From positions 1 through 20,656 of IMG/VR virus record IMGVR_UViG_3300031902_000065: 20,656 nucleotides of DNA. The stretch is one strand, 5' to 3'. Position 1 is the first letter of the stretch; each line of letters starts with the position of its first letter. The notes under the pieces were generated by a model. It was given only the letters and a program-made list of their open reading frames with translations. It made no database searches and was not told where the DNA came from. This DNA is from a virus. The position numbers and the translations under genes were made by a program. Shown here piece by piece: positions 2,229-14,524 of the stretch.

Positions 2229-5200
2229 TCACTCCTGGTAGTAGATGAAGACACGACTGTTGAAGGGAAGCATCGCCGGCAGCATCGACCGAACGGCACG
2301 GTCGTGCTCCAAGGTCTGCCGCGGAACGATGGTTGCGAGATCGAACAATGCTGCAACGTCGCTCAGCGACAGCACCTCGTCAAGCACGACGGTAACCGCC
2401 GTCGAGCTGCCGAGAGACGAGACGCTCGTGATGCGAAACCACTGGCCCTGGTTGCGGTTCGGGTTGAGGTAGTCGCCGGGCCGCGCGTCGAGAGCATCGC
2501 CCTCGATCACCGCAGCGGTCCCAGAAGGCGACATCCAGAGCACCCGTCGGTTGGCCACGCGTGCAGCTCCGACGGGCGCGAGCACGATGACGTCGTCGTC
2601 TGTGGTTGGGTAATTCGCACCGCTGCCGGTTGGGGCCAGGCCGGACCAGATGACGTTGAACGGGTCGCCTGACTTGCCGAGCAGCGACAGATCGAACATC
2701 GGCTCGTACAGACCAGAGCGCGTGCCTGCGTAGAGCTTGGCGCGGAACGTCGGAACTCGAGCAGCGAAGTTGCCGGTGTACGAGAACGCGATCGCCACAG
2801 CCTGGCTGGCTCCGTTGGTCAAGCCAGGCGCTGTCGTCACCGTTCGCGTTGAGCTCACCGTGCCCAGGATGCTGACCGCAGCGCCGAGCCCGGTCTCGTG
2901 CAGCTTGCCGCCCGTGTACTGGCTGTCGTTGACAGACGTCGGCAGGACCACAGAGTTGCCGCCGGAGACAGTAGCGGTGAACGTCCGCTCTGCCACAGGC
3001 GTGAACGTCGCGTCATCGAACACAACCTTCGTGGCGGTGTTGGACCTGATGAGCTTGCTGTTGCCGAAGTAGTCGATGTAGACGCCGCCGGCGTACTTGT
3101 CGACAGGGAGGGCAAGGCTCGGCACGGTGATCGATCCGGTCGAGAGAGTCAGCGTGTTGACCGCCTGGCTGACGATAACGCGTGACGCCTCGCCATCCCA
3201 CGTCTGGAGGAATCGAACACCGAAGTCGAGCCCCGGAACGGTAACGGTGACCGCCTTCCAGCCGGTGAGCAGCGTGACGTAGTCGACGGCGGCAGCGACC
3301 GTTCCCTTGCGCTTGATGACGTCGATCGCGCCGCCCCACAGCCGGCGGCGAACAGACCCGAGGAGCCCGACGGCGTCCGGGTTGATGCTGCGGTCGCGCA
3401 GGAAGGCATCGACGATCGATGTCTGGTTCTGTGGATCTCCAATCAGACCGAGCGGTCCGACTTCAGGGTCCACGACGTCGATCACGCCTGCGATGTATCC
3501 TCGCGTCTGATCGACACCACGCTGGAGGAAGGTCGAGACGTCGTCGAGCAGGCCGGTCGCACGCCCCAGCGACTGGCGGTCCTGCTCGTCAGCGCGCCGG
3601 TAGACCTCCGGGAACTTGGCGTACAGGTACTTGCCGTCGATCGTCACGCGGTCCTCGAGCACGATGCCGCCGACCCTGTTCTGCACAGGCGCCGACGGGC
3701 CTGCGTCCGTGTCACCAGGTTGGCGCGCAAGCCGGCGCCAGTTGTTGAGGCCGCGCGTGAATGCCACAGCTGCGAGCGGGACGCGCGACACGAACAACGA
3801 GTAGTAGTAGAACCGGCGCGGTGTGACGTCCGTGTCCTGGTAGCTCCCTGCGCCCCCGGCAGCACCGATCGGCAGGCCGCTGTAGACGACCTTGCCCAGG
3901 GGGTCCAGGCCGACACCGAACGGTGTGGTCGGGATCGCGGTCGCCGGATTGCCGTTGTACAGGCGAACGAAGGCTATGCCACCGCGTGTTGGGGTGAGGC
4001 CGGAGGTCGACAAGGCGCCGATGAACAGCTGGTCGCTACCTGGCCCAGTCGTGAAAGCAGCGCCGCGTGCGTCGTCTGGAACACCGTCGAGCCACAGCCT
4101 CGCATGGCTCGTACCCGCACCCGTGATCGCAGCGACGGAACTCCACGCGAGCCGGATCTCAACAGGGGCGGTTGCGAGCGCGAGCGTCCCGCTGGTCGGG
4201 TTGGCCACGTTGACCGAGGTGCTGTCGACAATGATCCCCTGCGCAGCCTCACTGGTAGTGATCTGCAACTGACGGTCATCGATCGTGATAGCGCCGCCGA
4301 CGTGTGTCAGGTACACGACCATACCGAGCTGGCCGATGGTGTTTTGCACGCGCCGAACCTGCGTGCGGATCTCGCCTTGGGCCGCAGAGACGAATGCTCC
4401 TGGCATCGTTGCCGTCAGGTAGCACGCAACAGGCGACCGAGTTGCGCCGAGGCCGACCTGGCTGGGCACGTAGTCGGTCTGCGTCGTTCCTACAGCGATC
4501 ATCCGACAAGAGAAGCTCACCGAGCCCGCCGTGTCGACGCCGTCCAGACCTCCGTACAGACGAATGGTCACGCCTGTGCCTGCACCGGTAGAGAAGGTGA
4601 AGAAGTACCGCTTGTAGTACGGCTGCAGGTAGACGACGGTCTTGACGTTGACCAGTGTGGTCGTGTCCGCAGCATCTCGGATCCACACCGTGGCCTTGTG
4701 GCCTGAGATGTTCGACTTCGCGTAGAACGAGAACGTGTGGACCGTCGACCCGGTCAACGCCGTCTTGGTGAACGCAGCACGGCCGTCCACAGCCGTCTGA
4801 ACAACACGAACAGCACTCGACAGCCCGGTCGGCCCGGCGGACACCGTGTCGGATGTGGCGCTGGTGAACGTGATGTCGGAGATGCCCTCGCTGTCGGTCA
4901 GCAGGTTGAGGGCGGAGATGTCAAACGCACCGTCCAGCCTCGTGGCGTGTTCATACAGAGGGTGGAATCCGTGCCAAAACTGTGCTGGTGCGTACGACGT
5001 GCTGGTCGCGTACTTGGCCACCTGCTCGATCGAGCAAGTCTCGCCGATCTGCAGAGCAGGCCACCCGCCAGCTGCGATGCTCGACCTCGTGTACGTGATC
5101 GGCATGGTGTCAGGCGCAGTGAACGGAACCCGGCCGTGCGTGAACATCGCGCGAGCTTGCGGCTCGAGGATAGACAGCGCTGCAGCGCGCTCCCAGCCTG

Positions 5201-6773
5201 CGATGGACAGCACCTGCATGTGGACGCTGCGATCGGTCGCAGAGCCGGCGATCTTGCCGACGCTGAACACCGTAGAGAGGGTCCCGTGTGCCGTGATTGC
5301 GCCGCCGGTGATGAAGCCATCGAGATCGCCCCACGCTCGCATCGTTCCGACCGACCAGTCGATGATGCCGGCCACAGCATGCCACGCACCGTCTCCGTAG
5401 TTGGCGGGCAGGGTGATCGTGGAAGCCACGCTTGCAGTGAAAACCTGGAAGATCAGCTGGCCGCTGGTGTTGAGCGCCATCCTGTACCCGTTGGTCAGTG
5501 CGTCGTTCACGTTGGAGAACACCGTACGCGTGGTGCCCGGTAGGCGAGCAACGCGAAAGACGATGTACACGGCGATCGAGTTGCTGTTTCCCGTCGCAAG
5601 CACAACACCGCCGCCGGCCGACTCGTAGCTGGGAGAACTTGGTGGCGCCTGGTCGAAAAACTCCGGTGCGGTGACCAACTGCATCGCGCCGATGTTGATC
5701 CCGACGCACGGTACAAGCGAGGTCGGACCGTTGCTGGTGAGCTGGCCGGCGAACGTCACCTTGTCGAACACGGACTGGACAGCTAAGAACGCCGTACCGC
5801 CACCGGTCATGTCCCACAGGTACGTTGGTGTTGCGACGGACGGATACCTCTTGCCCCACTCGGAGATGCTGGTCGGGATGTACTGGGGGGTTGGCGTGGT
5901 CATGTCGACGCCAAGCGTTGGCGCAGGGTCGTCAACCAGGTCGACAGGCTGCAGCTCGGGCGGCGCCATCATCGATCGGACGATAGCCAACGACCGAGGC
6001 TCGTCGGGGCCAGCCAGGGTGTTGGTCCAGGACAGGTCGATGCGACCGCCGCCGGGCCAAGACCGAGCTCGAAGGTTCCCAACCGTAACGGGGTCAGAAA
6101 ACCTGTCCCACGTCGTCACGTACACGTTGTCGATCGTCACCGAGATGCCAGCGCTGTCGATCGGGTGTGCTTGCCGCGAGAAAAACATCAGCCGGTTGCC
6201 CTCATGAGAGAGCGGGGTGCTGATCACTGATCCGTGGCGGACGATGCCGGTGCGCGCGGCGTACGTCGTGTTCCACGCCGACCATGTGACGCCGCTGTCC
6301 GTGCTGAACTCTGCCCAGATCAGCATGTCGGCGCGAGCGACGCGAACGAGGAACGAGCTGGCTGGCAAACCGACGACTGAGAGCTTGCGCCCGATCTCGT
6401 TGTCGCTGCTCGGACTGAAATAGACGTTCGGCGAGCCTGCTGCGGTTCCGCCGAACTCGACGATCGGCGTGATGGACGTCCCGCCGTTACCGATTCCGAT
6501 ACCGGCGGAGGAGATGTTGGTCCCGTTGATGATGGTGACGCCTGCTACCTGGAACTGAACGAAGAAGTTTCGCCCAGCGCCGACATCGAGCCACGCGTTG
6601 GGGTACAGCCCGAGGGGGAACACCGTCCAATTTAGCCCACCCTGCGTGATCTCCAGCGTGAGGTTGCCGCTGACGATGCTAGGGATCAGGCCATCGTCGC
6701 CGGCGACGACGTTCCACGGGCTAGCGAGCACGCCAGATGAGAAGTCGTCGAAGAACTTGTCGATCGCCGCCAT
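2229..6773 (-). CDS. Giant wedge-adhesin: gpI-like domain fused to lectin-like domains
   Basis: The 1514-residue product is a multidomain baseplate and adsorption protein. Residues 1-222 look like a concanavalin-type jelly roll (KFFDDFSSGVLASPWNVV ... DNVYVTTWDRF). Residues 231-276 (RIDLSWT ... LAIVRSMMAPPELQP) and 955-998 (LGKVVYSG ... YQDTDVTPRRFYYYSLFVSR) look like two halves of one FN3-like domain. Between them lie a LamG-like domain (about 370-535), a carbohydrate-binding-module-like domain (about 605-770, with TFSFYAKS) and a second LamG-like domain (about 780-945). Residues 1043-1178 match the tail protein I type (LYAKFPEVYRRADEQD ... RLWGGAIDVIKRKGTVAAAV). Residues 1190-1514 are small beta units. 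ATG 6773 follows the J-like stop by three bases. It probably bridges J to the fibres and binds surface glycans; this is inferred from domain type. Confidence 0.85.
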   Translation of the reverse strand: MAAIDKFFDDFSSGVLASPWNVVAGDDGLIPSIVSGNLTLEITQGGLNWTVFPLGLYPNAWLDVGAGRNFFVQFQVAGVTIINGTNISSAGIGIGNGGTSITPIVEFGGTAAGSPNVYFSPSSDNEIGRKLSVVGLPASSFLVRVARADMLIWAEFSTDSGVTWSAWNTTYAARTGIVRHGSVISTPLSHEGNRLMFFSRQAHPIDSAGISVTIDNVYVTTWDRFSDPVTVGNLRARSWPGGGRIDLSWTNTLAGPDEPRSLAIVRSMMAPPELQPVDLVDDPAPTLGVDMTTPTPQYIPTSISEWGKRYPSVATPTYLWDMTGGGTAFLAVQSVFDKVTFAGQLTSNGPTSLVPCVGINIGAMQLVTAPEFFDQAPPSSPSYESAGGGVVLATGNSNSIAVYIVFRVARLPGTTRTVFSNVNDALTNGYRMALNTSGQLIFQVFTASVASTITLPANYGDGAWHAVAGIIDWSVGTMRAWGDLDGFITGGAITAHGTLSTVFSVGKIAGSATDRSVHMQVLSIAGWERAAALSILEPQARAMFTHGRVPFTAPDTMPITYTRSSIAAGGWPALQIGETCSIEQVAKYATSTSYAPAQFWHGFHPLYEHATRLDGAFDISALNLLTDSEGISDITFTSATSDTVSAGPTGLSSAVRVVQTAVDGRAAFTKTALTGSTVHTFSFYAKSNISGHKATVWIRDAADTTTLVNVKTVVYLQPYYKRYFFTFSTGAGTGVTIRLYGGLDGVDTAGSVSFSCRMIAVGTTQTDYVPSQVGLGATRSPVACYLTATMPGAFVSAAQGEIRTQVRRVQNTIGQLGMVVYLTHVGGAITIDDRQLQITTSEAAQGIIVDSTSVNVANPTSGTLALATAPVEIRLAWSSVAAITGAGTSHARLWLDGVPDDARGAAFTTGPGSDQLFIGALSTSGLTPTRGGIAFVRLYNGNPATAIPTTPFGVGLDPLGKVVYSGLPIGAAGGAGSYQDTDVTPRRFYYYSLFVSRVPLAAVAFTRGLNNWRRLARQPGDTDAGPSAPVQNRVGGIVLEDRVTIDGKYLYAKFPEVYRRADEQDRQSLGRATGLLDDVSTFLQRGVDQTRGYIAGVIDVVDPEVGPLGLIGDPQNQTSIVDAFLRDRSINPDAVGLLGSVRRRLWGGAIDVIKRKGTVAAAVDYVTLLTGWKAVTVTVPGLDFGVRFLQTWDGEASRVIVSQAVNTLTLSTGSITVPSLALPVDKYAGGVYIDYFGNSKLIRSNTATKVVFDDATFTPVAERTFTATVSGGNSVVLPTSVNDSQYTGGKLHETGLGAAVSILGTVSSTRTVTTAPGLTNGASQAVAIAFSYTGNFAARVPTFRAKLYAGTRSGLYEPMFDLSLLGKSGDPFNVIWSGLAPTGSGANYPTTDDDVIVLAPVGAARVANRRVLWMSPSGTAAVIEGDALDARPGDYLNPNRNQGQWFRITSVSSLGSSTAVTVVLDEVLSLSDVAALFDLATIVPRQTLEHDRAVRSMLPAMLPFNSRVFIYYQE

Positions 6774-6776
6774 GGC

Positions 6777-8765
6777 TTAGAACGCACTCGCGATCGTGAT
6801 CGTCAGGTTGGTTGAGGAGAGCGCGGGGATCTCGTCGTCGTCGAGCAGAACGTCGTCAACGAACTTGTACACGTCGATGACGTACTGGTCCCCGCTAGAG
6901 AACCCGGTGCCGGTGATCCGCCACGAGAACCCATGCTGGTCGCCGCCGATCTTGGTCGGCGTGTAGAGCGTCCCGACCGTGCCGGTTGCCGGCGTGGCTG
7001 TCCATTCGACACTGTACGGGTCTCCCGGGACCGCGAACGCGTACAGATCGGTCAAGCCAGACGCCGTGATGGCCTGACCTGTGCTCTGCGCCGCGTTGAT
7101 CAGGACCGTGCTCGTGCTGTTGGTGTTCGGGTTGAGCACAAGCGGCGTTACCACCAACGTCAGGTCTGGAAACAGCGCGCGATCGTCGGTCAGCACGCTG
7201 CGGGTGAGCCCGGTGCTGCGGCCGATGATCGACTCGGTGACGCCGTACGCGGTAGGAGACGTGAACTTGATGCGCCAGCGCCGGCGCACAAGCTCATCGG
7301 ATTGCAGCGCGTTCGGCAACCACACGAGGGCAGCGTCTGTGCTGTTGACGAACCCGCGAGCCTTGAGCTGCGGGATCGTGGTCAGCTGGTTGATTCGGCT
7401 GACCTGCATGCCGCGCACCTTCAGCTTGGCCAGCACGGCGTCGACGACGCTCACGGTGAGCTGTGGGTCACCTGCGTCATCTCGGGCGCCGAACCCCGTG
7501 TTGTCGAAATCGAGGATGCCGTTCTGCTGGTCTGTTGGGTTAGGCGTGAGAAACAGCGACTTCGCGAAGATCTGGATGTCGCTGACGCGGGCCGACTTCG
7601 TCACGAAGAGGTCCGCGTTGACTATGATGGGGACGTAGAACGGATCGCCTGCGATCACACGGTGGCCGACCTGCCGGCGTGACGCCAGGTACGCGAGCGC
7701 AGAGTTCTTGAGGACGTCGGACGGCGCTCCGCCGCCAGCCGGCGCGATGACCACGCGGATGCTGCGCGAATCGACCTGAACAGCTGATGCCTTGGCAACA
7801 GACGACGAGGACTGGCGGGCCAGCGCCGCGTAGTCCTGCAGCGTGACAGCTCGGTCGCCTGCCGACAGGCTAGCCGGCACCGCGCTGCGAGCCTGCTCGA
7901 TGGTCTCTTGGTCGTCACCGCCGCTGCCCGGGGTTGGGTTGCTCACGCTCTGTACGAACGCGGGCGCGCTGACGATCGACTTGATGGTGGCGATGCCAAC
8001 ACGGCCCTGCACACCGCCGCCGATCCTGTAGCTCGCGGTCACGGCCTGGGAGATCGGCGGGATCTTGCCGTTCACGCTGTCGCCGAAGATCACAGAGACC
8101 TTGCCCTCGTCATCTGCGCGAGCCCGGTAGACCTGGTCGCCTGGGGAGCTGTTGGTGAACGTGGTGACCCGCGTCCACGCGCTAGCCGACACGAACACGA
8201 CCAACGTCCCGTCGATCACCGGAGCGTTTGGAATGGTGAAGGTCTGGTTCTGCGCCCCGGTCGATGTGCCCAGCGCAACGGTGACGAACTGCTCGCCCTC
8301 GACTGCGCCGATGGTCTGGCTCGCCGTCGTGATCGTGTAGTCCTGGTCGGGCTGAAAGACGATGCCGCCGGCTGAAAACTTGGTGGTCGTCGCCGGTAGC
8401 AGCGCCGGCAGCAACCCTGCGTTGGAGGTGATCGTGATCGTGGTCGTCGCTGGGGAGGCAGCTCGCATCTCGTAGCCATACGACCGAGCGGCGACGAGCG
8501 CGTGTGACCGGCGCTGTGCAGTGGCAAGCGGAATCTCGCGCAGCCCAGCGTTCATATAGAACGTGCACATGTCCATGAAGTACCCGAGCAGCTCGAGGAA
8601 CACGACGGCGAACTGGGTGTTGTTGAAATCCGTCCAGCGATCGGTGTACGTCGCGCTCGCGTACGCCTTGAAGTCGGCGATGATCGACTCCCAGTCAAGG
8701 CTGGTGTAATCGATGACCGGAGCGGCTCGGTTGAAGTTGACGGCTGATCCGCCTGCGTTGCTCAT
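6777..8765 (-). CDS. Baseplate wedge protein (baseplate J / gp6-like)
   Basis: The 662-residue product is a large baseplate J/gp6-like protein, the ring-forming wedge component. The N-terminus has the DYTSLDWESIIADFKAYA and FLELLGYFMDMCTFYMN helices of the family. Around residues 224-240 lies VIFGDSVNGKIPP, followed by YRIGGGVQGRVG. PGSGGDDQETIEQAR (about 277-291) and AVTLQDYAALARQ (about 303-315) are the typical loop and helix of baseplate J. The C-terminal 250 residues are beta-rich (with IRVVIAPAGG-like strands earlier) and probably extend the wedge. It is about twice the length of P2 J and closer to T4 gp6. The stop is 3 bases before the next start. Confidence 0.92.
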   Translation of the reverse strand: MSNAGGSAVNFNRAAPVIDYTSLDWESIIADFKAYASATYTDRWTDFNNTQFAVVFLELLGYFMDMCTFYMNAGLREIPLATAQRRSHALVAARSYGYEMRAASPATTTITITSNAGLLPALLPATTTKFSAGGIVFQPDQDYTITTASQTIGAVEGEQFVTVALGTSTGAQNQTFTIPNAPVIDGTLVVFVSASAWTRVTTFTNSSPGDQVYRARADDEGKVSVIFGDSVNGKIPPISQAVTASYRIGGGVQGRVGIATIKSIVSAPAFVQSVSNPTPGSGGDDQETIEQARSAVPASLSAGDRAVTLQDYAALARQSSSSVAKASAVQVDSRSIRVVIAPAGGGAPSDVLKNSALAYLASRRQVGHRVIAGDPFYVPIIVNADLFVTKSARVSDIQIFAKSLFLTPNPTDQQNGILDFDNTGFGARDDAGDPQLTVSVVDAVLAKLKVRGMQVSRINQLTTIPQLKARGFVNSTDAALVWLPNALQSDELVRRRWRIKFTSPTAYGVTESIIGRSTGLTRSVLTDDRALFPDLTLVVTPLVLNPNTNSTSTVLINAAQSTGQAITASGLTDLYAFAVPGDPYSVEWTATPATGTVGTLYTPTKIGGDQHGFSWRITGTGFSSGDQYVIDVYKFVDDVLLDDDEIPALSSTNLTITIASAF

Positions 8766-9163
8766 GGGGTCTCCGGCTCGAGGATGAATGGAACGACCGC
8801 GTTGCCGCGCTGGTTGGTAGCACGGACGACGTACCTCAACGTGGTGAGCAGGCCGGTAGCGCCGCCGGCGTAGGCTTGCTCGACCACGTTGACCTTGATG
8901 ATCCTGACGCGCGGCTCGTTGCGCGTGATCGTGTCGAAGACGGATGGCTGAACCTGGTCAGCGGCAACGTCGACGTCCTCGAAGGTCATCTCCGGCAGCA
9001 CGGAGCCGATCTGCGCGTCTTTACGCTCTCCGACCCTGGTCAGGACCAGGCCCTTCACGCACTGCTCCACGTTCGACTCGTCCGACACGCGGACAAAGTC
9101 GTTGGTCGTCGGGTCCATACGAAGCGGCCATGCGAGACCTTTTCCGAGCAGCGAATCCGCCAT
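8762..9163 (-). CDS. Baseplate wedge protein gp25-like (GPW/gp25 family)
   Basis: The 133-residue product shows the gp25/W family signature: GLAWPLRM near the N-terminus, LTRVGERKDAQIGSVLPE with the GER motif at 45-47, and the conserved NEPRVRIIKVNV strand with EPR at 83-85. The length is typical. In contractile systems it joins the sheath start to the wedge and begins sheath polymerisation. It overlaps the upstream gene by one base (TGATG) and the downstream J-like gene by ATGA. Confidence 0.94.
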   Translation of the reverse strand: MADSLLGKGLAWPLRMDPTTNDFVRVSDESNVEQCVKGLVLTRVGERKDAQIGSVLPEMTFEDVDVAADQVQPSVFDTITRNEPRVRIIKVNVVEQAYAGGATGLLTTLRYVVRATNQRGNAVVPFILEPETP

Positions 9164-11703: not shown

Positions 11704-12356
11704 TCGAGGCTCCTCAAGTCGAGCGCGGTGAGGTCGGTGCTCGCGTCGTCGTCTGGCCCGCCGCCGATGTCACTGGCGTAGACGGTCATGGTGGCAGCGA
11801 CCAGCAGCTTCATCTCGATCCGAGCGCGGAGCGGAGCGAGCTGCGGCGTGAAGGCGGTGACCTGGATCTCGATGTCCTCGGCCACAGCTCGCTGGCGGGT
11901 GAAGAACGAACCGAGCGTGAGGATGAAGCTCGGCGGCGTCGCTCCGCTCACGAACGACTTGCTGAAGCCGGTCCCTGACGGCTGCTCCGGGTAGGTCAGC
12001 GACCGGTAGAAGTTCAGCTCGTCCGAGATGTCGAAGCCGACATCGCCAGACCCGGCTGTAGCGACACGGCGCCGGTCGCTGCGACCGCGGTCGCCGTCGA
12101 TGAGGAGGGTGAAGGTGATCGGCTCGTCCTCGCCGCTGCCACCAGACAGGATGTTGTGGCTGTGGCCGACGACGGAGTGCTTGCCCCATTTCCACTTGTG
12201 GTTGGTCTTGACCTCGGTGGGGTTGAACATGAACGTGTGGACGTTCCGAACCTTGGGCAGGACGATCCGGCCGTGCGAGAGCTGCACGGCAAGCCCGGAC
12301 ACCTGGCCGCCGTCCAGGAACTGTGAGAACGGAAACGGATTGGGGTCGTTGGCCAT
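11700..12356 (-). CDS. CIS-tube-like (Afp7-type) hub-proximal baseplate protein
   Basis: The 218-residue product resembles the contractile-injection-system tube-family N-terminal domain found in Afp7/Pvc7 and phage proteins at the tube-baseplate junction. The signature is a strand ending in FNPTEV (residues 44-49), followed by FTLLIDGD (82-89) and a late AFTPQLAPLRARIEMKLLVA segment. The usual C-terminal LysM domain is absent here and is encoded by the next gene. It starts two bases after the tape measure stop and ends in an ATGA overlap with the LysM gene. It probably forms the adaptor ring between tube and hub. Confidence 0.8.
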   Translation of the reverse strand: MANDPNPFPFSQFLDGGQVSGLAVQLSHGRIVLPKVRNVHTFMFNPTEVKTNHKWKWGKHSVVGHSHNILSGGSGEDEPITFTLLIDGDRGRSDRRRVATAGSGDVGFDISDELNFYRSLTYPEQPSGTGFSKSFVSGATPPSFILTLGSFFTRQRAVAEDIEIQVTAFTPQLAPLRARIEMKLLVAATMTVYASDIGGGPDDDASTDLTALDLRSLE

Positions 12357-12358
12357 GG

Positions 12359-14524
12359 CTATTTTCCCATCCTACCTGTTCGCTCGTCCATGTGGGCCTG
12401 GTTCCTGTCCATGGCCTGGCCGACGAGCTGGCCGTCCATGTACACGGCGATCGGCGACCTCGCCACCTGCAGGATCGCCTCGTGGTACTTCGCGAGCCGC
12501 TCCTCGAGCGCCTTCGTCGAGGTCCCGCTGATCTGGTCCTGGTTCTTCAACCACTGGCTCGGGTTGACGCCGGACAGCAGGCCCGCGGCATCACCGCTCA
12601 TGATCAGCGCGTCGTTCTTCTTCTCGAACTCGGTCCGATCGTCCGGGTTGTAGAGGTCAGCAACCTGCTTCGCGGCCGGGCGCTGCATGCCCGTTTGCAT
12701 CGCGCTGACCTTGCGCTGCATCCACTTGGTGTACTGGCCGACGTTGTCGTATCCGCCGGCGCCTGAGCCGGATCCCTTGTCGGACAGCGTGCCCTGGTCA
12801 CCGGGCTCGTAGTCGCCCTGGTCGTTGTACCAGTCCCAGATTCCTTTGATCTCTCGAAGCGTCTTGAGCAGCGGATGTGCCTCCTGCTCGAGACCGTTCA
12901 TGCCCTGCTTGACAGAGCCGAGCCCGTCGATCAGGTAGCCGATGGCGATCACCGAGAAGTCGATCGCCCGCACGATGAGGCCGAACCCGTAGCCGAACGC
13001 GCCGACGATCGTGCTGATCACGCCGGCGATCGCCGAGCCCGCGTTCGACCAGTCGATGCTTGCGCCCGTGGCCGTCAGGCCCATCGTGTCGCCGACGTCG
13101 CCCATGAGGTTCTTGACTTGGTCGCTCAAGAAGAGAAGCGACTCGTGCGCGAAGCCGCCGGGGCCGAACGCCTCCTTCAAGCCCTCCCACAGGGACTCGA
13201 ACATCTTCTTCACCCTGTAGCCGGTCTGCAGGAGGGTGGTCGTGACGCCAGTGAGCCCCTTGTCGTCCAGCGCGTTCACCGTGCTCTCGGACAGGGTAGC
13301 CATGCCGTTGTTGATGTTGGAGAGGCCCTCCCACACGGCCGACAGCACCATACCAATCCGCTCCATTGTGTCGGCCACACCCTCGCCGTTCACGGCCCAC
13401 TTCGCGAGCATGTAGACGGCGCCGGCAAGCACGCCGACCAGGATAGCCACGGGCAGCATCGTGGTGAACAGCCCGCTGAACGCGAAGGCGACGGACATGA
13501 CGCCGAGCTTGATCGCCACGATCGCCGCGCCAAGACCGGCTGCGGCGCCGATGATCGCTGTGACAGCCCCGACGATCTTGATCAGGTTCGGGTGAGCCAT
13601 CGTGAACTCGAACATGTGCCGAGCCAGCCCACCAAGGTACGTCGCCGTGGTCGCGATGAACCTGCCGATGTCGCCGAACGCAGCAGCCATCGCGTCGAGC
13701 TTGTGGATGTTCTCGTGCGTCAGCAGACCCTCGCCGGGCTTCGTGAAGTAGTCGAGGAACTCGTGCAGCGGACCCTTGAGCGCGTTCATCATCGGCGTCC
13801 CGAGCGTCGACCACAGCTTCTGCTGGACGTCCTTGATCTGGTTGCTCAGGTATGGCCACGTGTCCATCAGGTAGTTCGTCAGGTCACCGAAGTCGCGAGC
13901 GAGCAGCGGGACCAGCTTCGCCCACTTCTCGGTGTTGTCGGTGACGCCGGCAAGCGCCTTGTCGTAGTCGTCCAGGTGAGCGGCGATCGGCCGCAGCATC
14001 ATGGCGGCTCGCTTCATGTGACCGTTCATCAGCGCGAAGATCCCGGCCTGCAAACCGACGTCTGATCTCGCCGCCAAGCCGACCTCCGACAGCAGCACGG
14101 CGCTGTTCTTGATCGCCAAGTTCGTTTTGTCGACCTCTTGCTGAACACGCGGGCTGAAGATGTCGACGTTGTTGACCTGCTTCATCATCGCGACCATGTC
14201 GTGCAGCTCCTTCTGGGTCTGCATCGAGTAGAGCGACGCGTCGGAGACCTGCTCCTTGACGTGCTCGAACGCGTTGACGTCCTTCATGTCGCGGTAGGCG
14301 AACGCCATCTCCTGGACGGCATGCTCGACCTCTGCAGACGTGTCGATCAGCGACTTGCCGGTCTTCACCAGCAAGCCGAAGCTGTGCTCGAACGTCTCGC
14401 GAAGCTCGCTGCCGACAGCTGCCACGGTGCCCGACAGGTCACCGAGCATGCCCTCGATCCGGCCGATGCCGCGCTCGACGCCGCTGGTTGCAGCGTTGAA
14501 AACCAGGCCGAATCCCATGTTCAT
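12359..14524 (-). CDS. Tape measure protein
   Basis: The 721-residue product is the largest tail gene between tube and hub and has the expected tape-measure make-up: a long helical N-terminus (residues 1-300, with amphipathic stretches such as SAEVEHAVQEMAFAYRDM), a hydrophobic, glycine/alanine-rich block at about 316-372 with several membrane-like segments, a second one near 495-540, and a C-terminal SPIAVYMDGQLVGQAMDRN strand pattern typical of the family. It sets tail length and is ejected with the DNA. No lysozyme or peptidase motif was seen. ATG 14524 overlaps the stop of the frameshift extension (ATGA), and AAGG lies eight bases upstream. At about 1.5 angstrom per residue it predicts a tail near 108 nm, short for a myovirus. 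Confidence 0.9.
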   Translation of the reverse strand: MNMGFGLVFNAATSGVERGIGRIEGMLGDLSGTVAAVGSELRETFEHSFGLLVKTGKSLIDTSAEVEHAVQEMAFAYRDMKDVNAFEHVKEQVSDASLYSMQTQKELHDMVAMMKQVNNVDIFSPRVQQEVDKTNLAIKNSAVLLSEVGLAARSDVGLQAGIFALMNGHMKRAAMMLRPIAAHLDDYDKALAGVTDNTEKWAKLVPLLARDFGDLTNYLMDTWPYLSNQIKDVQQKLWSTLGTPMMNALKGPLHEFLDYFTKPGEGLLTHENIHKLDAMAAAFGDIGRFIATTATYLGGLARHMFEFTMAHPNLIKIVGAVTAIIGAAAGLGAAIVAIKLGVMSVAFAFSGLFTTMLPVAILVGVLAGAVYMLAKWAVNGEGVADTMERIGMVLSAVWEGLSNINNGMATLSESTVNALDDKGLTGVTTTLLQTGYRVKKMFESLWEGLKEAFGPGGFAHESLLFLSDQVKNLMGDVGDTMGLTATGASIDWSNAGSAIAGVISTIVGAFGYGFGLIVRAIDFSVIAIGYLIDGLGSVKQGMNGLEQEAHPLLKTLREIKGIWDWYNDQGDYEPGDQGTLSDKGSGSGAGGYDNVGQYTKWMQRKVSAMQTGMQRPAAKQVADLYNPDDRTEFEKKNDALIMSGDAAGLLSGVNPSQWLKNQDQISGTSTKALEERLAKYHEAILQVARSPIAVYMDGQLVGQAMDRNQAHMDERTGRMGK

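Follow-up and report, generated by a model that had tools for sequence, protein, structure and literature searches.

Residues 226-276 and about 942-1038 of a baseplate protein encoded on this virus contig are the two halves of one FN3 domain, separated by an inserted block of 665 residues. Taken as a whole, the evidence is best explained by a BW3 wedge protein whose FN3 domain carries the block in its C-C' turn for putative binding of host polysaccharide, a reading that we consider probable. Read from the minus strand of the window, by which we mean the whole analysed stretch of 20,656 bases, the gene starts with ATG and encodes 1514 aa. Its parts and two neighbouring wedge genes are as follows.

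2229-6773, minus strand: whole gene, with an N-terminal beta domain, the split FN3, the inserted block, a Tail_P2_I-like core and a C-terminal beta region
6099-6773, minus strand: N-terminal domain (residues 1-225), phmmer match to L002 at E 3e-9
5946-6098, minus strand: first FN3 half (strands A, B and C; residues 226-276)
3951-5945, minus strand: inserted block (residues 277-941, 665 aa) in the C-C' turn of FN3, missing in all relatives compared
5109-5876, minus strand: part 1 of the insert (residues 300-555), LamG-like by motif only (DGAWHAVAGIID..)
4434-4913, minus strand: middle domain of the insert, CBM-like, with similarity to the GTA head-spike fibre domain NF048003
3951-4439, minus strand: second LamG-like domain of the insert (residues 779-941), with the Laminin_G_3 match on 3951-4217
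3660-3950, minus strand: second FN3 half (strands C' to G; residues ~942-1038), with RFYYYSLF as strand F
3237-3614, minus strand: Tail_P2_I / TIGR02242-like helical core (residues 1054-1179), weak alone and strong in relatives, with helices in the AF2 model
2232-3236, minus strand: C-terminal beta-rich region with the NPNRNQGQWFRI motif, kept in P0002 (BLASTP)
6777-8765, minus strand: gp6/gpJ-like baseplate wedge protein, the upstream neighbour (phrog_219, E 3e-39)
8762-9163, minus strand: gp25-like baseplate wedge protein (PF04965, E 2.6e-6; phrog_261)

Further neighbours encode spike OB-fold, hub-like, CIS_tube-like and tape-measure proteins, with sheath and tube genes farther upstream; the contig, which is viral, therefore carries part of the baseplate operon of a phage with a contractile tail. 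The downstream gene (3-2225), open at the contig edge, showed a weak N-terminal match to DUF4815 / phrog_877, and the gene that comes after the wedge gene in relatives starts in a similar way. Long plus-strand frames (3720-4706 (+) and others) run antisense in this GC-rich region (64% GC) and are probably coding-strand artefacts.

One FN3 domain in two halves

When viral contigs were scanned with the whole protein, a single relative came up: P0002 (861 aa, locus L002), which matched query residues 1-1513, is encoded directly downstream of a gp6-like gene and has an unbroken FN3. BLASTP aligned this nearest relative in two collinear segments (query 1-276 with subject 5-287, and query 942-1513 with subject 286-861), which adjoin in P0002 and leave about 665 query residues without a counterpart. 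Identity to its single FN3 was 53% (26/49) for the first half and 50% (19/38) for the second. The motifs named in the original prediction lie in the expected places, near residue 249 (RIDLSWT), at 960 (GKVVYSG) and near 987 (FYYYSLF). The original prediction had placed a lectin block of about 675 residues in one loop of an FN3-like domain, with the break at residues 277-953. The nesting was borne out by the uninterrupted homologues and the two-piece profile match described below, and the left edge at 277 held; the right edge shifts left from 953 to 941 because NPATAIPTTPFGVGLDPLG aligns with the P0002 loop HPHLYIGAAPVGLGINTFG, which gives a block of 665 residues. The N-terminal domain (residues 1-225) is common to the window protein and P0002 only, and other relatives carry an Ig-like domain, LamG or nothing there, making the N-terminus a second variable position.

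Scanning with the wedge neighbour and the tail core as queries brought in relatives beyond P0002, among them L049 (573 aa). An unbroken FN3 was found in P0002, P0005 (755 aa), L048 (546 aa), L051 (938 aa) and about 30 further viral loci. Homologues with a continuous FN3, which the prediction had named as a check, thus exist, and the domain is unbroken at the C-C' turn in all relatives compared. A scan of genome contigs with the wedge alignment gave no relative, and tblastn of P0001, P0002 and P0005 against INPHARED phage records gave nothing; INPHARED matched only with the gp6-like neighbour, which led to the Streptomyces phages discussed below.

The FN3 alignment relied on MAFFT E-INS-i and, in a different aligner, on repeated anchor fragments, as default MAFFT put the first half inside the insert. 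From the B-strand Trp to the F-strand Phe (the first Phe of FYYY), 22 aligned relatives have 51-65 residues and the window protein has 739. A profile built from these 22 relatives only matched the window protein at E 2.2e-7, or 5.1e-7 when P0002 was left out, far below the best of 1000 shuffles (E 0.23, and 0.7 for the profile without P0002), and the match is therefore not due to chance. It falls in two non-overlapping collinear pieces, with profile positions 7-41 at residues 232-270 and 64-84 at 977-997.

Structure prediction had also been proposed as a check. In an AlphaFold2 model of residues 226-1110, both FN3 halves showed confident strands (pLDDT 70-92), and the insert showed almost none (pLDDT mostly <50). 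When the model was compared with FNIII structures by VIA-align, the joined halves matched at Z 8-9.5, the roughly 92 aligned residues being spread over model residues 1-816. The two halves are thus predicted to form a single FN3 (best Z 9.5). Since the input alignment already placed the FN3 of the relatives across the gap, this joint folding is not independent evidence; the independent evidence for one FN3 is the contiguous relatives. The model of the unbroken relative L048 has seven strands (4-11, 18-24, 32-39, 50-55, 60-65, 72-82 and 95-101) and matches FN3 domains with Z up to 11.6. The break sits between its strands three and four, that is, at the C-C' turn. A PDB fold search with L048 was filled by FN3 domains, with no bacteriophage baseplate protein among the 50 matches listed, and was uninformative on the helical core.

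Two other accounts of the interruption were weighed. The segments might be separate complete domains merely resembling FN3 halves, and the Pfam fn3 profile (PF00041) indeed gave no match to the window protein at E <= 1, which is why we call the domain FN3 by fold and not by Pfam membership. This account is very improbable, being contradicted by homologues that are contiguous and share about 50% identity with each half, by the complementary two-piece profile match and by the joint fold of the predicted model. An assembly chimera joining two genes is hardly credible: the contig is metagenomic and the interrupted version is known from a single copy, but both junctions are in frame within one open frame of 1514 codons, GC is homogeneous (0.62-0.69 throughout), and codon use differs between insert and core no more than between core and wedge gene. 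With GC and codon use like those of its surroundings, the insert shows no sign of a recent foreign origin. Flanking DNA repeats were not found at the insert junctions, and a loop duplication at the two edges was not supported (left edge shuffle p ~0.15). As every relative examined lacks the block, it is probably an acquisition of this lineage and not something that the others have lost.

Wedge identity and contents of the block

We infer that the window protein is a BW3 (gpI/gp7-like) peripheral baseplate wedge protein of a contractile-tailed phage, an identity demonstrated for its relatives, because of the Tail_P2_I that follows FN3 in the relatives and because of gene order. PF09684 (Tail_P2_I) scored above its cut-off directly after FN3 in L056, L067 and L095-L097 (LuckySocke, pSt2308 and GiJojo). 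The window protein itself gave no match to PF09684 and a weak one to TIGR02242 at the core (17 bits vs a cut-off of 51.85). Synteny with the gp25 and gp6-like genes was evident, and the order gp25 (8762-9163), gp6/gpJ-like (6777-8765), window gene fits that of gp25 - gp6/gpJ - gpI. Both the Tail_P2_I straight after FN3 in relatives and the position after the gp25-like and gp6-like wedge genes agree with the wedge protein named in the original prediction. Structure matches in BFVD include 'Tail protein I', 'CBM-cenC' and 'Chitin-binding type-3'. Receptor-binding proteins usually attach to BW3 (PMC10811340).

The block had been described as two LamG-like domains and a CBM-like domain, and profiles support the latter two of its three parts. 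The middle domain, a CBM in the broad sense, matched NF048003, a GTA spike fibre domain, over 151 residues at E 3.3e-8 (34.2 bits vs a cut-off of 36). The second LamG-like domain matched Laminin_G_3 (PF13385) at E 1e-4 to 1e-6 with 22.8-26.2 bits, below the curated cut-off of 27.6; E was 7e-5 for the domain alone and 9.6e-6 for the whole protein. The first LamG of the description did not gain such support, as part 1 (the first ~280 residues, with the LamG-like motif) matched no Pfam or NCBIfam profile. A search for relatives of the insert elsewhere found none. Downstream in the nearest relative, L002:11304-12071 encodes a separate 256-aa protein of LamG-like appearance with weak similarity (E 0.4) to part 1.

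Proposed role and decoration in relatives

In the mechanism we propose, the FN3 preceding the Tail_P2_I core has accepted the ~665-residue block in its C-C' turn, and the model predicts that its two halves still fold as one domain. With the halves folded together in this way, the block would project sideways from the edge of the baseplate as a chain of beta-sandwich domains of the sugar-binding type. Judging from domain similarity and from BW3 as the anchor of receptor-binding proteins (RBPs), it would most likely bind host surface polysaccharide, and by analogy with the CBMs of evolved Dit in siphophages it might help or replace separate tail fibres. Separate tail fibres are possible too, since the record is a 20.7 kb fragment. 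Virion beta-sandwich decorations are often general adhesins, and the block could accordingly be structural or stabilising, in the baseplate lattice or through virion stickiness to environmental polysaccharide, instead of a host-specific receptor binder. We regard this as quite unlikely, as host binding is favoured by the RBP-anchoring role of BW3 and by the resemblance of the block to LamG and to a head-spike domain that binds capsule.

No insert at the C-C' turn was found among the 22 aligned representatives and the other relatives compared. Two other lineages have the FN3 of this family interrupted at other places. In L049 (8275-9993), about 170 residues lie between strands C and F of FN3 (residues 46-216), in a different loop; this intervening part includes a GRLL..NSQVHRILSNTSTSLTL motif like that of the C-terminal region of the wedge family. 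The Streptomyces phages BRock (L094:4233-6608), LuckySocke (L095:3875-6226), pSt2308 (L096:3709-6063) and GiJojo (L097:3662-6013) carry a CBM_5/12-like insertion of about 46 residues in the F-G loop, which matched Pfam CBM_5/12 at E ~0.02 in pSt2308 and GiJojo and more weakly or not at all in BRock and LuckySocke. Their proteins, annotated 'hypothetical' or 'minor tail protein', also gave clear CBM_5_12 matches at residues 320-352, after the Tail_P2_I core. Other family members have CBM_4_9, CBM_5_12 or LamG outside FN3. In L051:12007-15909, the wedge protein has an N-terminal LamG (Pfam, above cut-off) and an Ig-like domain followed by an unbroken FN3, and is preceded by an Ig/TIG-containing protein with a possible lectin-like C-terminal part (12007-13062). 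Since relatives carry other insertions in other loops, this FN3 tolerates decoration. It is fair to state that the wedge family is often decorated with carbohydrate-binding modules and that its FN3 accepts insertions in several loops, use of the C-C' turn being known once.

The original prediction had gone further and seen in the loop a slot where receptor-binding cassettes are exchanged around an unchanging baseplate core. Tolerance of insertions at other loops of this FN3 agrees with part of that idea, and the ~170 residues in L049, the F-G insertion of the Streptomyces phages and the CBM_5_12, CBM_4_9 or LamG elsewhere in other members could be counted in its favour. The C-C' turn, however, is occupied only here, the other insertions sit at other loops, and neither a second cassette nor flanking repeats were found; a dedicated slot at this turn is doubtful. 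Tentatively, the FN3 of the BW3/gpI-like family may be an evolvable docking platform that takes up unrelated sugar-binding modules on different loops (C-C' here, C-F in L049 and F-G in the Streptomyces phages). If true, the baseplate rim itself would be a receptor-binding organ of contractile phages.

Comparison with known systems

Among BW3 proteins (P2 gpI with Tail_P2_I, T4 gp7, pyocin PA0619 and A511 gp104), the window protein shares the gene order after the gp25 and gp6-like genes, the Tail_P2_I found in its relatives and the place of BW3 as attachment site for RBPs (PMC10811340). It differs in that FN3 precedes the core and itself bears the putative binding domains. The Streptomyces phage proteins BRock gp126, LuckySocke gp100, GiJojo 92 and that of pSt2308 belong to the same FN3 + Tail_P2_I family (profile E 1e-21 to 1e-26) and have CBM_5_12 modules, but their FN3 is unbroken at C-C', with the small CBM_5/12-like insertion at F-G and CBM_5_12 after the Tail_P2_I core. 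AlgoCIS Alg11 likewise has carbohydrate-binding modules (two, in domain IV) in a baseplate wedge protein of a contractile system, though it is a different wedge protein, described as a spike-cage former, with no FN3 insertion (PMC8894135). The head spikes of RcGTA mediate attachment to the recipient capsule (PMC13420450), and their fibre domain NF048003 matches the middle domain of the insert over 151 residues with a score just under the curated cut-off; its location is the head in RcGTA and the baseplate here.

The closest functional parallel, by analogy, is the evolved Dit of siphophages, in which inserted CBMs promote adsorption (PMC10688798, PMC7291167). In both cases sugar-binding domains sit in a beta-sandwich loop of a conserved baseplate protein, there the galectin domain of Dit, and the N- and C-terminal parts align to a plain version (PMC10688798, PMC7291167). 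Here the host domain is the FN3 of a BW3/gpI-like wedge protein of a contractile tail, the binding is putative, and the insert has 665 residues against 168 and 319 in evolved Dit (PMC10688798). The window protein is not a Dit with inserted CBMs, as its relatives match Tail_P2_I and not Dit, and the analogy is a functional one only.

A full-text literature search of partial coverage gave no account in which lectin-type domains lie within the FN3 of a gpI-like protein. The kind of arrangement is known from CBM insertion in Dit, and what may be new, as far as that search reached, is the site. The protein offers a defined insertion point and, as controls, many natural uninterrupted relatives; both are useful in studies of how baseplates gain host-recognition domains and in the annotation of metagenomic phages for receptor-binding domains. 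That the CBM-insertion logic of siphophage Dit is met again in the RBP-anchoring wedge protein of a contractile phage suggests convergent evolution.
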